Below, one piece after another: positions 1,083 to 21,397 of a stretch of DNA of 64,000 bases. Within the stretch, counting starts at the first letter, position 1, and each line of letters opens with the position of its first letter. Location of the stretch: positions 1 through 64,000 of IMG/VR virus record IMGVR_UViG_3300045241_000217, one strand, 5' to 3'. Under the pieces are notes generated by a model, which was given only the letters and a program-made list of their open reading frames with translations, did not search any database and had not been told where the DNA came from. This stretch comes from a virus. The position numbers were made by a program, and so were the translations under genes.

Positions 1083-1990
1083 TCGCCTCCCTTCGTACCA
1101 TACTCACGCTCGATCCGGTCCGCGATAGCTTCCACCAACTCGCGACGCGACGCGCATGAGCTGCACCGACACATGAAGCCGTCCACAGGGGTTGCGTCCA
1201 CACCCACTGCGGCCAGGTCGCGGCCGTCCCGCAGCCCTCGCACGATCGACGCCACTACGGTTGAGGTGTCGGCGGGAGCGGGAGGAGGGCCGACCTTCGC
1301 GAACATGTCCGGCGCTGACGTTCCTTCGGCCGCATCGGCGTACACCTTCGCGAATCGAATCGCCCACCACTCGATCGGCGTGAACGGGCTCTTGTGCGTC
1401 TCGCTCGGAGCGGGAGTAGCGGGAGCGGTGGAGAGGGCCCGGATGCGAGCGGCGAGGTCGATGCAGACCAGGCGCTCGATCTCGTTGACGTGGCTCAGAG
1501 AGGCCACCATGTCGTCGATGCCCACGTCTCCCGATGGCGGCATCGCAAGCGCCTTGGTCGCCCTCGCCACTTCCGCGTCGCACACCTTCGCTGCATCTCG
1601 CAGCCCGCGCTCGTACGCCGCTGCCTCTACGCTCGGAGCTACCTGTGTGAGGGCTGGGCGTGGGTGGGTGGCGTCTACAGCGGCGATGATGCTCTCGACC
1701 TCGTTGGCCACCGTCTCGGACGCGAAGTCGGCCCGCACGCCATCGGGGTCCGCGTACCAGCCGCCGCGCTGGCCTTCGTGCATGCGGCCCTCGACGAACG
1801 CGGCCCGCACCAGAGCCCGCTCTCTCTCCACCATGGTTGATGGTGCTGGGTCTGCGTACTCGTGCATCGGCGAGCGGCGGATGATCTCGCGGATGTGCTC
1901 CCGTTCGAGCGAGTGCGGCTGCGCGTCGAGCCACGCGAGGTTCTCGTCGATCATCGCCTCGTAGGCCGCGCGCGTGAGCTTGCTCGTCAT
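1079..1990 (-). CDS. hypothetical protein (303 aa)
   Basis: ATG 1990 was chosen because it overlaps the previous stop (ATGA). The protein is mostly helical. Its C-terminus has a Cys cluster (GFMCRCSSCASRRELVE) that could bind zinc. The segment PFTPIEWWAIRFAKVYADAA is a conserved-looking helix. Similar 'helices plus CxC/CxxC' layouts recur in neighbouring genes. Function is unknown. Confidence 0.6.
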   Translation of the reverse strand: MTSKLTRAAYEAMIDENLAWLDAQPHSLEREHIREIIRRSPMHEYADPAPSTMVERERALVRAAFVEGRMHEGQRGGWYADPDGVRADFASETVANEVESIIAAVDATHPRPALTQVAPSVEAAAYERGLRDAAKVCDAEVARATKALAMPPSGDVGIDDMVASLSHVNEIERLVCIDLAARIRALSTAPATPAPSETHKSPFTPIEWWAIRFAKVYADAAEGTSAPDMFAKVGPPPAPADTSTVVASIVRGLRDGRDLAAVGVDATPVDGFMCRCSSCASRRELVEAIADRIEREYGTKGGE

Positions 1991-2193
1991 TGCGTCTCCT
2001 TCGTAGCGTCGCGTTTGCGAGCGGCTCGACGTTGGGCGGCTTGCTCCTCCGGCGGCGTGGCCGAGTGCGGATAGAGCAGGCCGGTGATGCCCACCTTGAC
2101 GCGCTTGCCGCATCCCTCGCAGGTGACGGTGTAGTGGTTCTCCCAGGTGGCCGCTCGTGGCGTCGGCATCGTGACAGGGCAGCGGTTCTTCAC
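1987..2193 (-). CDS. small zinc-ribbon-like protein (68 aa)
   Basis: GTG 2193 overlaps the TGA of the upstream gene; ATG 2169 is an alternative. It contains HYTVTCEGCGKRVKVGITGL, a CxxC knuckle, followed by a basic, Gln/Arg-rich tail. It is one of about a dozen Cys-pair mini-proteins in this genome. No specific function can be given. Confidence 0.55.
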   Translation of the reverse strand: MKNRCPVTMPTPRAATWENHYTVTCEGCGKRVKVGITGLLYPHSATPPEEQAAQRRAARKRDATKETQ

Positions 2194-2579
2194 TTCGCCG
2201 TCTCCTTCGATGCGTCTAGGGCGGTGAGAGCGTTGAGCAGCGCGCGTTCGGCGTGGCCTCGCGGCGTCAGGTAGAACCGCTCGTCCTCCGTCCACGTGCA
2301 GTCGTTGTAGTCATCGCTCGGTGGGCAGATACGGAACGGTCGCGCCGCCTCTGCCACCGCTTCCAGTGCGCGAAGGCGAGCGAGTAGAGCGGGGAGAGCG
2401 CTGCGCATGGCAATGATGCACGCGACGTCGTTCTTGCCTGCGCCGTCCATCGTCACGACGCCACCGCCGCTGACTGTGATGACGTGTCCGTGCTTCGTAG
2501 CGGCCCACGGTCCCGGCGTCGCCGCCTCCATCAGCCGCTCTAGGTCCGCGATGCGCTCGGGCCAGGTCCTTGTGCTCAC
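2190..2579 (-). CDS. hypothetical protein with EAATPGPW motif (129 aa)
   Basis: The start is GTG 2579, directly downstream of a stem-loop/AGGAAG module. The N-terminus RIADLERLMEAATPGPWAA is a pattern I recall from many phage and prophage hypothetical proteins. It is followed by GGGVVTMDGAGKNDVACIIAMRSALPALLARLRALE and an acidic C-terminal part. The function of this family is not known to me. Confidence 0.65.
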   Translation of the reverse strand: MSTRTWPERIADLERLMEAATPGPWAATKHGHVITVSGGGVVTMDGAGKNDVACIIAMRSALPALLARLRALEAVAEAARPFRICPPSDDYNDCTWTEDERFYLTPRGHAERALLNALTALDASKETAK

Positions 2580-2587
2580 TGGATCCT

Positions 2588-2610
2588 CTTCCTGCCGGCT
2601 CGGTGCCGAC
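2588..2610 (-). promoter_or_regulatory. stem-loop fused to Shine-Dalgarno (module, ACCGA loop)
   Basis: Read on the minus strand: GTCGGC-ACCGA-GCCGGC (one G.U pair), then immediately AGGAAGAGG and GTG 2579. It is a member of a recurring family whose stems differ in sequence but keep base-pairing. Confidence 0.6.
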
Positions 2611-2649
2611 CCTCGTGTGATGCCACGAGAGCGTGAGCGGTCAAGGTGG

Positions 2650-2970
2650 TCATCGCGGCTCGAGCAGCGCCGCGATCTGCCACGGCCGAGGCGTGCGCCG
2701 CTTGCCCGTCTCGTCGTCGTCCATGTCCGTCGCGCGCTGGGGGGCGGGCTCCACGAGCTCGACGCTGATCCCCTCATCGTCGGGCCGGCTCACGATGCAC
2801 AGCATCCCGGGCTCGCGGAGCTGGAAGTCGATCTGCTTCACGCCGTCCACGAGGACCTGGACGCGGATGCGCTTGGCGTTGTCGAGCAGGTCCCCGCTGA
2901 TCGTGTAGTCGCGGCGGGAGAAGTGATCGGGCTCCCACTTCTCTTCCGGCTGCTGCTTGTCGTTCGCCAT
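2650..2970 (-). CDS. hypothetical protein (106 aa)
   Basis: ATG 2970 follows GGAGCG on the minus strand. The protein is hydrophilic with a central beta-rich part (YTISGDLLDNAKRIRVQVLV, then QIDFQLREPGMLCIVSRP) and an acidic DMDDDET tail. It follows the 432-aa gene after 2 bases and is probably cotranscribed with it. Not recognised. Confidence 0.6.
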   Translation of the reverse strand: MANDKQQPEEKWEPDHFSRRDYTISGDLLDNAKRIRVQVLVDGVKQIDFQLREPGMLCIVSRPDDEGISVELVEPAPQRATDMDDDETGKRRTPRPWQIAALLEPR

Positions 2971-2972
2971 GG

Positions 2973-4271
2973 CTACCGTTCGCTCCTGTCGCTGAGCGCG
3001 TCTTCGATGCGTTGGATCTTCTCTTCGGCGAGGCGGGCGCGCTGGAGGAGCGAGCCGCGGTCCTCGCGGACGCGCATGAGCTCGCTGGTCACCTCGCGCA
3101 CCCTGTTGTCCTGCTCGGCCTGCGCGGCTCCGACATCGGCTTCGAGTACGCGCACGCGTGAGCGGAGCTTCTCGACCTCGGCGCGCCACCACGCGAGATC
3201 GGGAACGCGCTGGCCCGCTTCGTCTCGCGAGTCGCGGTCGCGGTTCTTCAGCATCCGCAAGTCCCACTCCCGCTTCAGCGTGCCGTACACGTCCGCGAGG
3301 AACGGGCTCCGCTCCATGTCGGCGAGGAACGTTGGGCCATCGTTCGGGGCCAAGAGCTCCGGCGTGAATGGCTGGTTGTCGCGGATTGCTCGGCCGAGCA
3401 CGTGAGCGAAGGACTCCATCCAAGGCGCTACGTTCAGGTCGCCTTCGGTGCGCCCTTCGATCCACGGGCCCTTCGGTGACTCGGCGATCACGTGGTTGCA
3501 GGAGGTGCAGACCGTCGCGAGGGCGGGCTGCCCCACCACGCCGCGCACCTTCGTCGTCGGGTGAGCGCACCGCGGCTCTGATGCGAGGACCGCTCGGTCG
3601 CTCAGGCTCGCTTGGTACACCACCGACTCGGCGGGGAGCGTGGGCTCGGAGCGTGCGAGGTGGACGCAGCGGAAGGCGTGCTCGCGGGGAGTGAACGCGC
3701 GAAGCGACTCGACGCGACTGGGCTCGGGGGCAGGGCCGTGCTCACCGAGATCGGCTGCGACGATCGCCGCGACCACGCGCTGCGCGGACTGCGTTCGCTG
3801 CGCGAGCTCCTCGTCGGTCTCCCACGACCCGTTCTCGTGACGCATGCGCTCCAGGGGCTCCGATGTCTCCCGCGGCCGGGCGTCGTCGTACGCGGCTTGC
3901 TGGCGCTTCGTGCTCTCGGCCTTCTTCACCGAGTCGAGGAGTGCGGCGAAGAACGCGGTGCCCGGCGAGGCCGACTCGAGCTTCTGGATCCACGCCTCGA
4001 TGGCTTGGACGCGTTCGGCGAGGAGCACGTCGGGCTCGGCTCGCGCTGCGTCATGCCGAGGGCGCTTCGTCCAGTCCGTGGCCTCGTCGAACGCCAGCGG
4101 CTCGAACGCGGGGTCCGAGGTGTGTCTGGAGTGCTTGCGCGCGTACGCATCGAGCATGCGGCCACGAAGATCCACGTCCGACTCGCCAGGGCGTCGTGCT
4201 TCGAACGGCAGGAACATGTCGAGCAGGCGCTTCACCAGCGCGTCGAGTCCCTTCCCGCTCGCGGTGTGCAC
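2973..4271 (-). CDS. hypothetical protein with CxxC and C-terminal coiled coil (432 aa)
   Basis: The first in-frame start is GTG 4271, with no good SD. The same frame has a stop about 80 bases upstream. Helices fill the first 200 residues. A TVCTSCNHVI knuckle lies near residue 260. The last 90 residues form a coiled coil (EVEKLRSRVRVLEADVGAAQ). The upstream frame (4051..4497) overlaps it by about 220 bases, and the two together read like one protein split by a frameshift. Function unknown. Confidence 0.55.
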   Translation of the reverse strand: MHTASGKGLDALVKRLLDMFLPFEARRPGESDVDLRGRMLDAYARKHSRHTSDPAFEPLAFDEATDWTKRPRHDAARAEPDVLLAERVQAIEAWIQKLESASPGTAFFAALLDSVKKAESTKRQQAAYDDARPRETSEPLERMRHENGSWETDEELAQRTQSAQRVVAAIVAADLGEHGPAPEPSRVESLRAFTPREHAFRCVHLARSEPTLPAESVVYQASLSDRAVLASEPRCAHPTTKVRGVVGQPALATVCTSCNHVIAESPKGPWIEGRTEGDLNVAPWMESFAHVLGRAIRDNQPFTPELLAPNDGPTFLADMERSPFLADVYGTLKREWDLRMLKNRDRDSRDEAGQRVPDLAWWRAEVEKLRSRVRVLEADVGAAQAEQDNRVREVTSELMRVREDRGSLLQRARLAEEKIQRIEDALSDRSER

Positions 4272-16476: not shown

Positions 16477-17249
16477 GGCGCGACCCGTCGAAAGGAGAGC
16501 GCCCACACCCATGGATCGGCGCTCCAAGAGGCGCCTTCGCGCTCGCCGTTGAGCGACTCCCAGAGATTCGCGAACGCCGTCTTCGGGTTCCCGAGGCAGT
16601 GCGTGTGCCCTCGCACCGGATCGAGCTCGACGGGATGCGGCCGCTCGAACGACCACCGCGGCTCGCAGAGGTTGCGGTACGGGTGGTCACTCGTCTCGCT
16701 CGCAAGCTCTCGCGCACCCTCCGCTCGTGCGTCCTCGATCGTGATCTCTTGGAGACGTTGCACGCGCACGTCGGTGATCTCTAGGACCGAGCGCGACATC
16801 CACCGCATGCAGAAGATCGACTGACGGATGCGGCCCCACCAAGCCATCGGCTCGGGAGCCCCCGAGGCCTCGTAGAAGATCGGCGAGCCCACCGGCACCT
16901 CGCGCGGCGGGAGGTGGTCGTACTTCGCGAGCGTGCGCCACGTCTCTTTGACCCACAGTCGGTCGCCCTGGTCGCCGTGCGGGCAGATCACGCCCGGACC
17001 GCTCCCGAGCATCGCGAGCATCTCGGGGGAGACGTTGGGGCCCATGTCCGTGAAGGCCGGCCGGCCGTTGCTGCCGAGCACCATCGAGACGCCGGCGTGG
17101 TTGCGGTTCCAGTCGGGCCACTTGAAGCGCACGACCCTGCGTGTCTGGGTCTTCTCGTCTCTGAGCGTCGCGAGCGCCATCGGTGCGCTCATGAGGATCG
17201 GCTTCTCGGTGATGGGGCCGGCGGCGCCAGCACTCGGCTGCGTGATCAC
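16473..17249 (-). CDS. ASCH-domain phage protein (258 aa)
   Basis: Contains KPILMSAPMALATLRDEKTQ and TRRVV near the N-terminus, DRLWVKETWRTL, ITDVRVQRLQEITIEDARAE and a C-terminal FANLWESLNG with DPWVWALSF. These are the blocks of the ASCH-type proteins common in phages and prophages (a fold related to RNA-binding PUA domains). The biochemical role is not known. GTG 17249 overlaps the upstream TGA. Confidence 0.75.
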   Translation of the reverse strand: MITQPSAGAAGPITEKPILMSAPMALATLRDEKTQTRRVVRFKWPDWNRNHAGVSMVLGSNGRPAFTDMGPNVSPEMLAMLGSGPGVICPHGDQGDRLWVKETWRTLAKYDHLPPREVPVGSPIFYEASGAPEPMAWWGRIRQSIFCMRWMSRSVLEITDVRVQRLQEITIEDARAEGARELASETSDHPYRNLCEPRWSFERPHPVELDPVRGHTHCLGNPKTAFANLWESLNGEREGASWSADPWVWALSFRRVAP

Positions 17250-17683
17250 GACTTGCTCTCCTCAACCAGATCGAGCGCTGCGAGCAGATCGGCAGGCTCG
17301 ATCTTGTACTTCTTCATCATCCGCAGCGGCACGATTCGATCGGCTCGCACGTCGGGGCGCGTCTCGGGCTCCCACTCGCACGCCTTGTACGGGCACGGGT
17401 TGTTGTACGGGAACTCGCGGCAGAGCAGCGGCCGCGTCTCGTAGATCCCGCAGTCGCCGTTCGGCTGGAGCTTCGTGCACGTGTACCAGTGCAGCGATTC
17501 GCCGCTCGTGCGCGACACGATCTCTGGCACCGGCGACTCCACCGACTTGCCGAGATACGTGAAGATCTCTGCGGCCTGGGCGTCGCTGGGAAGGAACCGC
17601 CCCGCGGCCGCTTTCTCCTTCAACGTCTGCGGGTCGTAGGGAAGCGTGAACGCTCGGCAGCAATGCCCGGTGCAGCGACTCAC
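17246..17683 (-). CDS. YkgJ-like Cys-cluster protein (145 aa)
   Basis: Starts VSRCTGHCCRAFTLPYDP. It has YTCTKLQPNGDCGIYETRP and LCREFPYNNPCPYKACEW, i.e. the eight-or-so-cysteine pattern of YkgJ-type zinc/iron-cluster proteins. The family's reaction is not established. GTG 17683 overlaps the previous TGA. Confidence 0.75.
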   Translation of the reverse strand: MSRCTGHCCRAFTLPYDPQTLKEKAAAGRFLPSDAQAAEIFTYLGKSVESPVPEIVSRTSGESLHWYTCTKLQPNGDCGIYETRPLLCREFPYNNPCPYKACEWEPETRPDVRADRIVPLRMMKKYKIEPADLLAALDLVEESKS

Positions 17684-17898
17684 GACCGCACCATCACGCC
17701 GCCCGTGGTGATCCACAGCCGCATCGCGTCCGCCATCGCGTCGAGGCGTCGCCCGTCCGTCTCCGGCACCCGGTACGCCGCCATCGCGACTGGTAGCGCG
17801 TCGGCTAGGGCTTGGCCGTGCTCGGCCTCGATGACCTTCCTGGCTTGCTTGAGGGCCCGGTCGAGCCCGCGCAGCGCCTTCGTGACCTTGGGGCTCAC
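17680..17898 (-). CDS. hypothetical protein (72 aa)
   Basis: GTG 17898 overlaps the upstream stop. Helical: VTKALRGLDRALKQARKVIE and RRLDAMADAMRLWITTGGVM. Not recognised. Confidence 0.6.
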   Translation of the reverse strand: MSPKVTKALRGLDRALKQARKVIEAEHGQALADALPVAMAAYRVPETDGRRLDAMADAMRLWITTGGVMVRS

Positions 17899-18320
17899 GT
17901 GACCACCTCTCGCTTCCGCAGTCCGAACGGGAGCGCCATGCCCTCGGGCAGCACCCACAGGTGGTACATGTTCGCGTCGTCCACGAGCGCGCTCTCAGCC
18001 GGGTAGACCTCGACGGCCACGCGCTCCGCGCCCACGAGCTCGCTCTTGATCCGCTGCATGTCGCGCCACGAGCGGATCGGCTGGTTGTCGTGACGGCGCA
18101 CCATGAGGTTGAGCACCTCGCCCCACTCGCTCGCCTTCGGGTAGCACTGCACGGAGTACACAGCGTTGCGCCATGCGCGATCGAGGCCGTGGATGTTGTA
18201 CGTGTGCCGCTCGTCGGGACCAACGGGGACCTCCTGCCATTCGCCCCACGCTCCGTGTCGCGCAGCCCTGCGCGAGTCGCTGACCGCGGCTCGACGCTGC
18301 GCTCTCGTCGCGGCCTTCAC
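17895..18320 (-). CDS. conserved phage protein (DUF7694-like), 141 aa
   Basis: The block NAVYSVQCYPKASEWGEVLN, LMVRRHDNQPIRSWRDMQRI, ELVGAERVAVEVYPAESALV and DDANMYHLWVLPEGMALPFG is a strongly conserved phage family that I recall as DUF7694. Function unknown. ATG 18320 overlaps the previous stop (ATGA). Confidence 0.75.
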   Translation of the reverse strand: MKAATRAQRRAAVSDSRRAARHGAWGEWQEVPVGPDERHTYNIHGLDRAWRNAVYSVQCYPKASEWGEVLNLMVRRHDNQPIRSWRDMQRIKSELVGAERVAVEVYPAESALVDDANMYHLWVLPEGMALPFGLRKREVVT

Positions 18321-19790: not shown

Positions 19791-21041
19791 TCAGGGGTAT
19801 GGGAACGGGGCCACCCAGCGGGAGGCCTCGCGGATGGCGATGCCGATCGGCTCGGCTACAGCTTCAACGACAGCGTTTCCGAGCGCGGCAAGTCGGTCCA
19901 GCCGATCGGGAACCCCATCAACGCTTCCACGAATGACGGGTTCAGGTAGACCGTCGGCGATCCAGGCGTCCCAGCCGGATCGATCGAAGGGTCGCGGTGG
20001 AAAGGCGCGTCGGTCCACTCGCGCAGAGCGCTCGGCAGGTTCGGCCCGCCCGCTCCGCGTTCTTTCCGGTAGCGATCGAGCGTCCCTCTCCGCGCGTCGC
20101 TCGCTCTCGGCGTGGGGAATAGCTGGCTCTCGTCCGCTGCCCTCACGGCGGCTTCCAGCGTCGGGCTCGCGTGTCCGTTCCGGCCCGCTCCCTTCCGGTC
20201 TCGCGCCATCGGCGTCGGCCACGACGGATCCGCCATCGCCAGCCACTCCCGGATCGCGTCGTTGAGCGTCGTCCCCGAGTGCCCCGAGATCATGTACCCG
20301 TGTCTCGCGCTCGCGCTCGCGTCCGTGGCCGTGGCCGTGGGCCAGAGCTTCGCTGCCATCGCCAGAGGCAGCGAAGCTCTGGTCGCGTTCTCCGCCTTCG
20401 TCGCATGCTCCGCTCGTCTCGCCAACCAGCTCGCCGGATCCTCCCCGTCGTTGAAGTTCCCGGCGTTCGGCGTCGGCCAGCACGGTGCGCTCTCGACAGT
20501 CGGCCACGGCACGCTCGAGGTGGACTCGGAATCGGTCGAGTCGTCCTCCGTCTCGATGGGCGACGATGAAGAGGCGGGCTCGGCGGTGCGGTGCGCCCAC
20601 GTCGGACGCGCGGAGATCGAACCACTCCGCATCGCGCCCGAGTGCGGCAAGGTCGGCGAGGACGCCATCGAGACCACGGGTGCGGAGCCCGGGGACGTTC
20701 TCGATGACGACCCACTCGGGATCGAGCTCGGCGATGACGCGTCGGAACTCGGGCCACAGCCACCGAGGGTCATCTGCCCCGCGGCGGGCTCCTGCGACGC
20801 TGACGGGCTGGCAGGGGAACCCCCCGCAGAGGACGTTGATCGCTTCGACTTTCCCACGCTTCACCTCCTGAACCGACCCGAGGAGCCTGGTGCCCGGGAA
20901 CCTGGCGCGCAGCAGGCGCTTGCAGAACGGATCCATCTCAGCCTGGAACGCGATGCGCGTGCCGGGCCCGAGCCCGCGAGCGAGCCCGTTCTCCAGACCC
21001 GCGATGCCGGAGAAGAGCGAGCCGATGACGAAGTTGCTCAC
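19791..21041 (-). CDS. dcm: C5 cytosine DNA methyltransferase (416 aa)
   Basis: Motif I GSLFSGIAG (7-15), motif IV GGFPCQPVS with the catalytic Cys at 77, motif VI ENV (114-116), motif VIII RARLFIVA (154-161) and C-terminal motif X LAALGNAVVEAVAEPIG are all present. The long recognition region (~165-345) is Arg/Gly/Asp-rich. A second open frame runs through it (see 19856..20857). Role: modification of phage DNA, probably against host restriction. GTG 21041 overlaps the upstream TGA. Confidence 0.9.
   Translation of the reverse strand: MSNFVIGSLFSGIAGLENGLARGLGPGTRIAFQAEMDPFCKRLLRARFPGTRLLGSVQEVKRGKVEAINVLCGGFPCQPVSVAGARRGADDPRWLWPEFRRVIAELDPEWVVIENVPGLRTRGLDGVLADLAALGRDAEWFDLRASDVGAPHRRARLFIVAHRDGGRLDRFRVHLERAVADCRERTVLADAERRELQRRGGSGELVGETSGACDEGGERDQSFAASGDGSEALAHGHGHGRERERETRVHDLGALGDDAQRRDPGVAGDGGSVVADADGARPEGSGPERTREPDAGSRREGSGREPAIPHAESERRAERDARSLPERTRSGRAEPAERSARVDRRAFPPRPFDRSGWDAWIADGLPEPVIRGSVDGVPDRLDRLAALGNAVVEAVAEPIGIAIREASRWVAPFPYP
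19856..20857 (-). CDS. second frame inside dcm: WPTP-repeat protein of a known phage family (333 aa)
   Basis: It is read on the same strand as dcm in another frame and is open for 1 kb. It is not random: SPTLPHSGAMRSGSISARPT, then four related repeats (CWPTPNA, LWPTATATD, SWPTPMARD, LFPTPRASD) and the ending LNPSFVEALMGFPIGWTDL. I recall this layout from phage proteins annotated near or as DNA methyltransferases. It may be made by internal initiation (GTG 20857) or by frameshifting from dcm. Expression is unproven. Confidence 0.5.
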   Translation of the reverse strand: MGKSKRSTSSAGGSPASPSASQEPAAGQMTLGGCGPSSDASSPSSIPSGSSSRTSPGSAPVVSMASSPTLPHSGAMRSGSISARPTWAHRTAEPASSSSPIETEDDSTDSESTSSVPWPTVESAPCWPTPNAGNFNDGEDPASWLARRAEHATKAENATRASLPLAMAAKLWPTATATDASASARHGYMISGHSGTTLNDAIREWLAMADPSWPTPMARDRKGAGRNGHASPTLEAAVRAADESQLFPTPRASDARRGTLDRYRKERGAGGPNLPSALREWTDAPFHRDPSIDPAGTPGSPTVYLNPSFVEALMGFPIGWTDLPRSETLSLKL

Positions 21042-21397
21042 GCGCGACGCTTTCGCTTCTTCTTCGGCAACGTGTCCTCGAACCGATGGTGCTGCGGGCC
21101 CACCGTTCGGTAGGTCGAGAAGCGACCGTCCATCGCCATCATGCGGAGCCCGAGGTTGTTCCCCTCGTTGAGCTGATGGAGCACCCATCCCACGCACGGC
21201 TGCTCTTCGCCCACCGGTGACTCGTGGCACGCCATCATCCGCATGGTGCCCCGGCCGAGCCCCTCGAACGATCCTGGGCGAGCCACGGTGCCCTTGAGGT
21301 TCTTGTGCTTCTGCTCGCAGTAGCCACCGGGGATGTCCCGCTCAGGAACCGTGCTCGTCTTCCACGGGCACGCCTTGCACTGAAGGCGCAGCGTCAC
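21038..21397 (-). CDS. DUF6283-like conserved phage protein (119 aa)
   Basis: The blocks CKACPWKTSTVPERDIPGGY, CEQKHKNLKGTV, MMACHES and CVGWVLHQLNEGNNLGLRMM followed by QHHRFEDTLP match the DUF6283 family as I remember it. The cysteines (three pairs) probably bind metal. Function unknown. GTG 21397 overlaps the previous TGA. Confidence 0.8.
   Translation of the reverse strand: MTLRLQCKACPWKTSTVPERDIPGGYCEQKHKNLKGTVARPGSFEGLGRGTMRMMACHESPVGEEQPCVGWVLHQLNEGNNLGLRMMAMDGRFSTYRTVGPQHHRFEDTLPKKKRKRRA

Follow-up and report, generated by a model that had tools for sequence, protein, structure and literature searches.

A predicted two-polypeptide cytosine-5 DNA methyltransferase in a phage, with its second subunit apparently nested in the gene of the first

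We analysed a window of 64,000 nucleotides, part of a 109,170-base virus record, and its cytosine methyltransferase locus very probably encodes a two-polypeptide cytosine-5 DNA methyltransferase, whose beta subunit is predicted to be nested in the gene of the alpha subunit. Frame 0 would give alpha, with the SAM-binding and catalytic domain (motifs I-VIII, PCQ and ENV), a low-complexity linker and motif X. Inside the alpha gene, a ribosome initiating at a separate Shine-Dalgarno (SD) sequence and GTG would read the +1 frame and make beta, consisting of an N-terminal part, a variable region of PTP repeats in place of a target-recognition domain, and motif IX. The two chains may then assemble into the active enzyme, alpha binding SAM and catalysing, beta contributing motif IX and probably the recognition of the target, and the likely job of the enzyme would be methylation of phage DNA against host restriction.

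The two overlapping reading frames and their motifs

A preliminary description had pointed to a second same-strand frame, open for 333 codons inside dcm. Both open reading frames were recovered, on the minus strand and with an offset of +1, and the pair is laid out as follows.

19791-21041, minus strand: alpha (dcm), predicted large subunit of a C5-cytosine DNA methyltransferase, 416 aa, GTG start at 21041, motifs I-VIII and X
19856-20857, minus strand: beta, nested open reading frame, 333 aa, +1 frame of alpha, GTG start at 20857, PTP repeats and putative motif IX
20861-20869, minus strand: Shine-Dalgarno sequence AGGAGGTGA of beta, last base 3 nt from the GTG; AGGAGG ends 6 nt before the GTG

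The beta GTG is the exact beginning of the open frame, and AGGAGGTGA lies just upstream of it. A DUF6283 gene stands upstream of alpha and overlaps its start by ~4 nt, and farther upstream are genes for an HTH protein, a DnaB-like helicase and an AAA_24 protein. Among the scanned neighbours of the methyltransferase gene we saw no restriction endonuclease, and therefore we take the enzyme to be probably an orphan phage methyltransferase. An antisense open reading frame of 333 codons (window 20112-21113, plus strand) also spans the locus and looks like a GC-rich chance frame. Elsewhere in the window, at 17246-18223 on the minus strand, an open reading frame carries a CxxCxxCC putative metal-chelating domain (PF03692, E 6e-06).

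Alpha has the features of a C5-cytosine DNA methyltransferase (PF00145), namely motifs I-VIII with the catalytic PCQ and ENV, as identified from PF00145, alignment to M.HhaI and Foldseek. The PF00145 match (E 8.6e-34) was confined to residues 6-169, residues 4-410 matched phrog_363 (E 5.9e-66), and the N-domain of the alpha model (pLDDT above 90) retrieved M.HaeIII (5e-13) and also M.HhaI with Foldseek. The motifs were located as listed.

20982-21029, minus strand: alpha motif I (VIGSLFSGIAGLENGL), aligned to M.HhaI
20808-20825, minus strand: alpha motif IV, GGFPCQ, with catalytic Cys77 (M.HhaI alignment)
20688-20702, minus strand: alpha motif VI, ENV (M.HhaI alignment)
20568-20597, minus strand: alpha motif VIII, GAPHRRARLF (M.HhaI alignment)
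19890-19919, minus strand: alpha pre-X element DGVPDRLDRL, on the same nucleotides as putative beta motif IX
19866-19892, minus strand: alpha motif X, LAALGNAVV (residues 384-392), pLDDT above 90

Motif X is GNAVVP-like, yet EAV stands after GNAVV instead of PQV; the window alpha reads LGNAVVEAV, and nearly all relatives read LGNAVVPQV. Motif IX is absent from alpha, whose frame reads DGVPDRLDRL at that place. The DNA of the beta PTP-repeat region, read in the alpha frame, yields low-complexity sequence rich in VADA/R/E, with pLDDT below 50.

All the motifs that had been quoted for the second frame, namely SPTLPHSGAMRSG, four WPTP-like repeats and LNPSFVEALMGFPIGWTDL, were present in beta.

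20621-20659, minus strand: beta SPTLPHSGAMRSG, where alpha reads DLAALGRDAEW; relatives show a constrained choice of synonymous codons (GGG, GAT)
20096-20482, minus strand: beta PTP-repeat region, four repeats
20462-20482, minus strand: beta repeat CWPTPNA
20321-20347, minus strand: beta repeat LWPTATATD
20198-20224, minus strand: beta repeat SWPTPMARD
20096-20122, minus strand: beta repeat LFPTPRASD
19889-19948, minus strand: putative beta motif IX (YLNPSFVEALMGFPIGWTDL), from its pattern, the order in fused relatives and a weak profile match

The C-terminal motif LNPSFVEALMGFPIGWTDL sits within 19889-19948. We read LNPSFVEALMGFPIGW of beta as a putative C5-methyltransferase motif IX because it resembles the textbook motif, stands in the corresponding order in fused relatives, and is backed by a weak profile match of an independent beta to PF00145 positions 270-322 (E 0.2). 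The profile search that had been proposed for the second frame matched beta residues 170-324 to phrog_1008, annotated as 'DNA methyltransferase' (E 2.4e-24). When solved structures were searched with short stretches of motif IX and with the beta profile, the matches were all weak and unrelated; AlphaFold modelled beta alone at low confidence (pLDDT 55), and neither a confident fold nor an annotated domain was obtained for it. As read from the sequence, the division of motifs is I-VIII and X on alpha and IX on beta, and the target-recognition region seems, unexpectedly, to be coded by beta.

Coding signals and selection in the second frame

Synonymous shuffling of the window gene left the +1 frame open over alpha residues 57-384 in 19 of 2000 cases (~1%). 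When codon usage was scored by the phage's other genes, the +1 frame reached +0.25 against -0.23 for frame 0 over alpha residues 161-360, and over the first 56 residues frame 0 scored 0.88 and the +1 frame -1.01; in 202 stretches of the phage's ordinary genes (leave-one-out), there was no case of the +1 frame standing above frame 0. The leave-one-out version was used after an initial codon-usage null was dropped for taking in open reading frames with a wrong-frame GC3 pattern. GC at the third position in the overlap was 0.84 for the nested frame, and alpha's own third position dropped from 0.92 to 0.67.

Viral contigs were searched with a DNA pattern for MGFPIGWTDL, and 119 stretches were returned. 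The catalytic domain was covered in 112 loci, always in the same relative frame as in the window; frame 0 continued past motif IX in 108 of these and ended early in 4. Stops were counted in 98 diverse viral homologues among these loci, with synonymous shuffles as the expectation. The interruption in relatives that the preliminary description had named as evidence against a second gene did not appear: over alpha residues 131-380, where the search pattern partly dictates the last ten codons, 0 stops were observed in the +1 frame vs ~250 expected. Stops in this frame were as frequent as expected in the first 60 residues, fell over 61-130 and were back after 381, and in the +2 frame observed and expected numbers were about equal throughout. 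In the GYDAEW stretch of relatives, the frame-0 Gly codon was nearly always GGG and TAC-GAC was seen once, indicating that S-G-(T/M)-(M/T)-R is kept in the +1 frame.

We calculated pN/pS from a few close pairs (viral loci L030, L032 and L101; phages Diva and Xenia), none including the window itself, and in the variable region the viral loci gave 0.06-0.08 for beta and 2.5-5.5 for alpha, with 0.05-0.16 at the alpha N-terminus. More distant pairs gave 0.43-0.48 for beta and ~1.1 for alpha in this region. Between the Paenibacillus phages Diva and Xenia, the variable region held 8, 1 and 0 differences at nested codon positions 3, 1 and 2, and pN/pS was 0.08 for beta and 0.94 for alpha, with 0.18 at the alpha-only 3′ end. 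We used close pairs aligned on beta, and phage groups, in place of position-specific substitution counts on gappy nucleotide alignments, which came mostly from spurious pairs. The comparison shows purifying selection in the nested frame only across the variable region and constraint on both frames at the overlap ends, so that dual coding is uneven along the overlap. The earlier claim that both frames are meaningful over 1 kb thus agrees with the ends and is not borne out in the variable region, and the comparison of the two frames that had been suggested found beta conserved there and alpha not. Alpha across the variable region looks like a passenger, and its structure model agrees with the selection pattern, residues 1-163 and the motif X helix having pLDDT above 90 and residues 213-357 below 50.

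Initiation of beta, its layout in relatives and the competing explanations

The SD of the window beta is an 8-nt match. Among the 98 homologues, an SD of at least 6 nt preceded a +1 start at residues 40-100 in 31 genes, vs 12.4 ± 3.2 expected, and the same test in the +2 frame gave 4 of 98 genes vs 8.6 expected. The upstream boundary of the +1 frame in relatives ranged mostly from before residue 0 to residue 85, and to 129 in three divergent ones. Because beta begins with a start codon behind a strong SD, and relatives have more of these sites than expected, independent initiation is favoured: a nested gene with initiation of its own is a likelier account of beta than a frame-switched product. 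Judged from these sequence signals, the second frame is a real, selected coding sequence, a gene with its own start signals.

Samples drawn without regard to the +1 frame, the best 80 alpha homologues in viral contigs and the best 80 in bacterial genomes, were classified by script. The viral sample held 57 nested, 9 split-like and 7 canonical single-frame genes, the bacterial sample 41, 7 and 10, and the rest were unclear. No +1 stop lay in the overlap in 56 of 66 testable viral genes (46 stops in all vs 230 expected, mostly in canonical genes) and in 41 of 62 testable bacterial genes (43 vs 99.5 expected). Among the closest relatives sampled, the share with the nested layout ran from about half to more than two thirds; these fractions describe the best matches to the window alpha and not all C5-methyltransferases. 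As a tblastn query against phages, P0002 gave no match, and as a pattern query it gave one locus only; homologues were recovered with the motif pattern and a mid-GC beta query instead.

Depositors had annotated the nested gene in the Paenibacillus phages Diva (DIVA_50, 'g49 internal gene'), Tadhana, Bloom and Leyra, and only alpha in Xenia; no phage-wide description of nested methyltransferase genes was found in the literature searched. In a phage from Manatee Spring (L132, MW202476.1 49267-52728), the alpha N-domain is 54% identical to that of the window, and the locus is annotated only as hypothetical proteins, one starting inside alpha. Split genes with overlapping halves occur in DarthPhader (gp21/gp22), Phlei (64/63) and Camerico (38/39), and separate halves in Streptomyces phage Samy (49/50); in DarthPhader and Phlei motif X is on the second chain. 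Standalone phage members of the second-frame family, which the preliminary description had mentioned, do exist, as SAMYPH_50 of Samy, gp22 of DarthPhader and phrog_1008 attest. The free-standing beta gene of Samy (phrog_1008; L130, 1480-2229), downstream of a separate alpha, is a useful natural control. In the fused genes ShiLan gp70, prophiGD91-2 gp27 and L005, the catalytic domain is followed by the PTP region, the MGWP motif and motif X in one frame; the PTP and MGWP region is likewise in frame with the catalytic domain in L004. In the fused single-chain relatives L003 (1995-3164) and L005 (~1800-4000), a nested N-terminal peptide, TWPxSGMTRxG..LLPTP, is still read in the +1 frame where the catalytic domain is encoded, and the PTP repeats then go on in frame 0; this looks like the outcome of an indel that joined an ancestral nested gene to the host gene. 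These fusions are the best evidence that the two parts work together, and beta occurs together with alpha in the loci where upstream sequence was covered.

The fused relatives bear on two other explanations. That the nested frame encodes a genuine protein of unrelated function, for example a regulator or an anti-restriction protein, would suit a beta without confident fold or annotated domain. We consider this quite unlikely, since the region is fused in frame with the methyltransferase catalytic domain in relatives, motif IX falls on beta exactly where alpha lacks one, beta accompanies alpha wherever the upstream part was covered, and phrog_1008 is annotated as a DNA methyltransferase. Instead of a different protein with its own function, the second frame probably encodes the second subunit of the methyltransferase, carrying motif IX as in the motif split of M.EcoHK31I. 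ShiLan gp70, L004 and L005 also have in one frame exactly the composition of a frame-switched product, in which ribosomes would begin on alpha and shift +1, fusing the catalytic domain to the PTP/motif IX region. However, beta has an SD and a start codon at its 5′ end, enriched over shuffles, and independent starts would be expected to give the observed spread of the upstream +1 boundary. Moreover, the window and other nested genes keep motif X in frame 0, so that such a fusion would be without it, and beta is a separate coding sequence in Samy, DarthPhader and the Paenibacillus phages. We therefore give frame switching a very small probability: where dual coding or a frame-switched product sharing the Dcm N-terminus had been proposed, the second coding sequence stands and the frame-switched product is made unlikely by the SD and start evidence.

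A chance open frame in a GC-rich gene, its motifs being by-products of conserved alpha motifs, is hardly credible. The +1 frame of the window gene does stay open in ~1% of synonymous shuffles, and MGFPIGW is partly forced by GVPNRVDRL and WPTP by VADA, but this partial forcing does not explain the stops, the codon choice, the SD sites or the substitution pattern. The frame is open to the same degree in relatives with a GC content of 37-50%. The choice among synonymous codons, the pattern of substitutions, the SD sites and the codon usage all track the nested frame, and the region is found alone in its own frame elsewhere.

Beyond the nested beta subunit that we prefer, a wider reading can be offered tentatively, as something possible. 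In this family target recognition may lie wholly on beta, and the alpha middle (~150-200 residues) may be a disordered passenger, open only so that the ribosome reaches motif X. Beta motif IX and alpha GVPxRxDRL would share 27-30 nt in many members, and C5-methyltransferases of phages and prophages would commonly have this layout, most of them being recorded as a single gene. Just half an enzyme may be described in many of the 'DNA cytosine methyltransferase' entries for phages and prophages, the half evolving like a specificity determinant often being missing from the annotation. This bears on the prediction of methylation specificity, on the expression of such enzymes, and on the origin and persistence of overlapping genes; among natural relatives the same enzyme occurs in nested, split and fused form.

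Comparison with known methyltransferases

The small subunit of M.EcoHK31I, according to what Lee et al. reportedly described in 1995, is likewise coded in an overlapping alternative frame; the window beta overlaps alpha in the +1 frame with AGGAGGTGA and GTG. Compared by their motifs, the two enzymes have the same partition: alpha of M.EcoHK31I carries motifs I-VIII and X and the small polypeptide motif IX alone (PMC3404938), and alpha of the window is without motif IX. They differ in that the predicted target-recognition domain of M.EcoHK31I is assigned to the large subunit, whereas the variable region of the window family evolves in the beta frame, alpha there being predicted disordered and without amino-acid constraint in the pairs tested, and beta being modelled at pLDDT 55. 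Unlike M.EcoHK31I, the window gene had no restriction endonuclease noticed beside it.

M.AquI has motifs I-VIII on one chain and IX-X on the other (PMC3404938). Two chains with motif IX on the second are common to M.AquI and the window pair, but motif X is also on the second chain of M.AquI and on alpha in the window, and the M.AquI type of split matches DarthPhader, Phlei, L010, L021, L022 and L026 instead. The single-chain mycobacteriophage methyltransferases (ShiLan gp70, prophiGD91-2 gp27) have a homologous PTP-repeat and EWMMGWPxGW region; unlike the window pair, they are one polypeptide, in which a single frame holds the catalytic domain together with motifs IX and X. The pair of the Paenibacillus larvae phages (DIVA_49/DIVA_50; Tadhana, Bloom, Leyra) shares with the window a +1 nested beta, PTP repeats and LNPDWVECLMGFPIGWTD, and its beta has an SD of its own, GGGAGGT. 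In these phages alpha extends ~160 nt beyond beta and motifs IX and X share no nucleotides, whereas in the window the same bases encode both the putative beta motif IX and the alpha pre-X motif.
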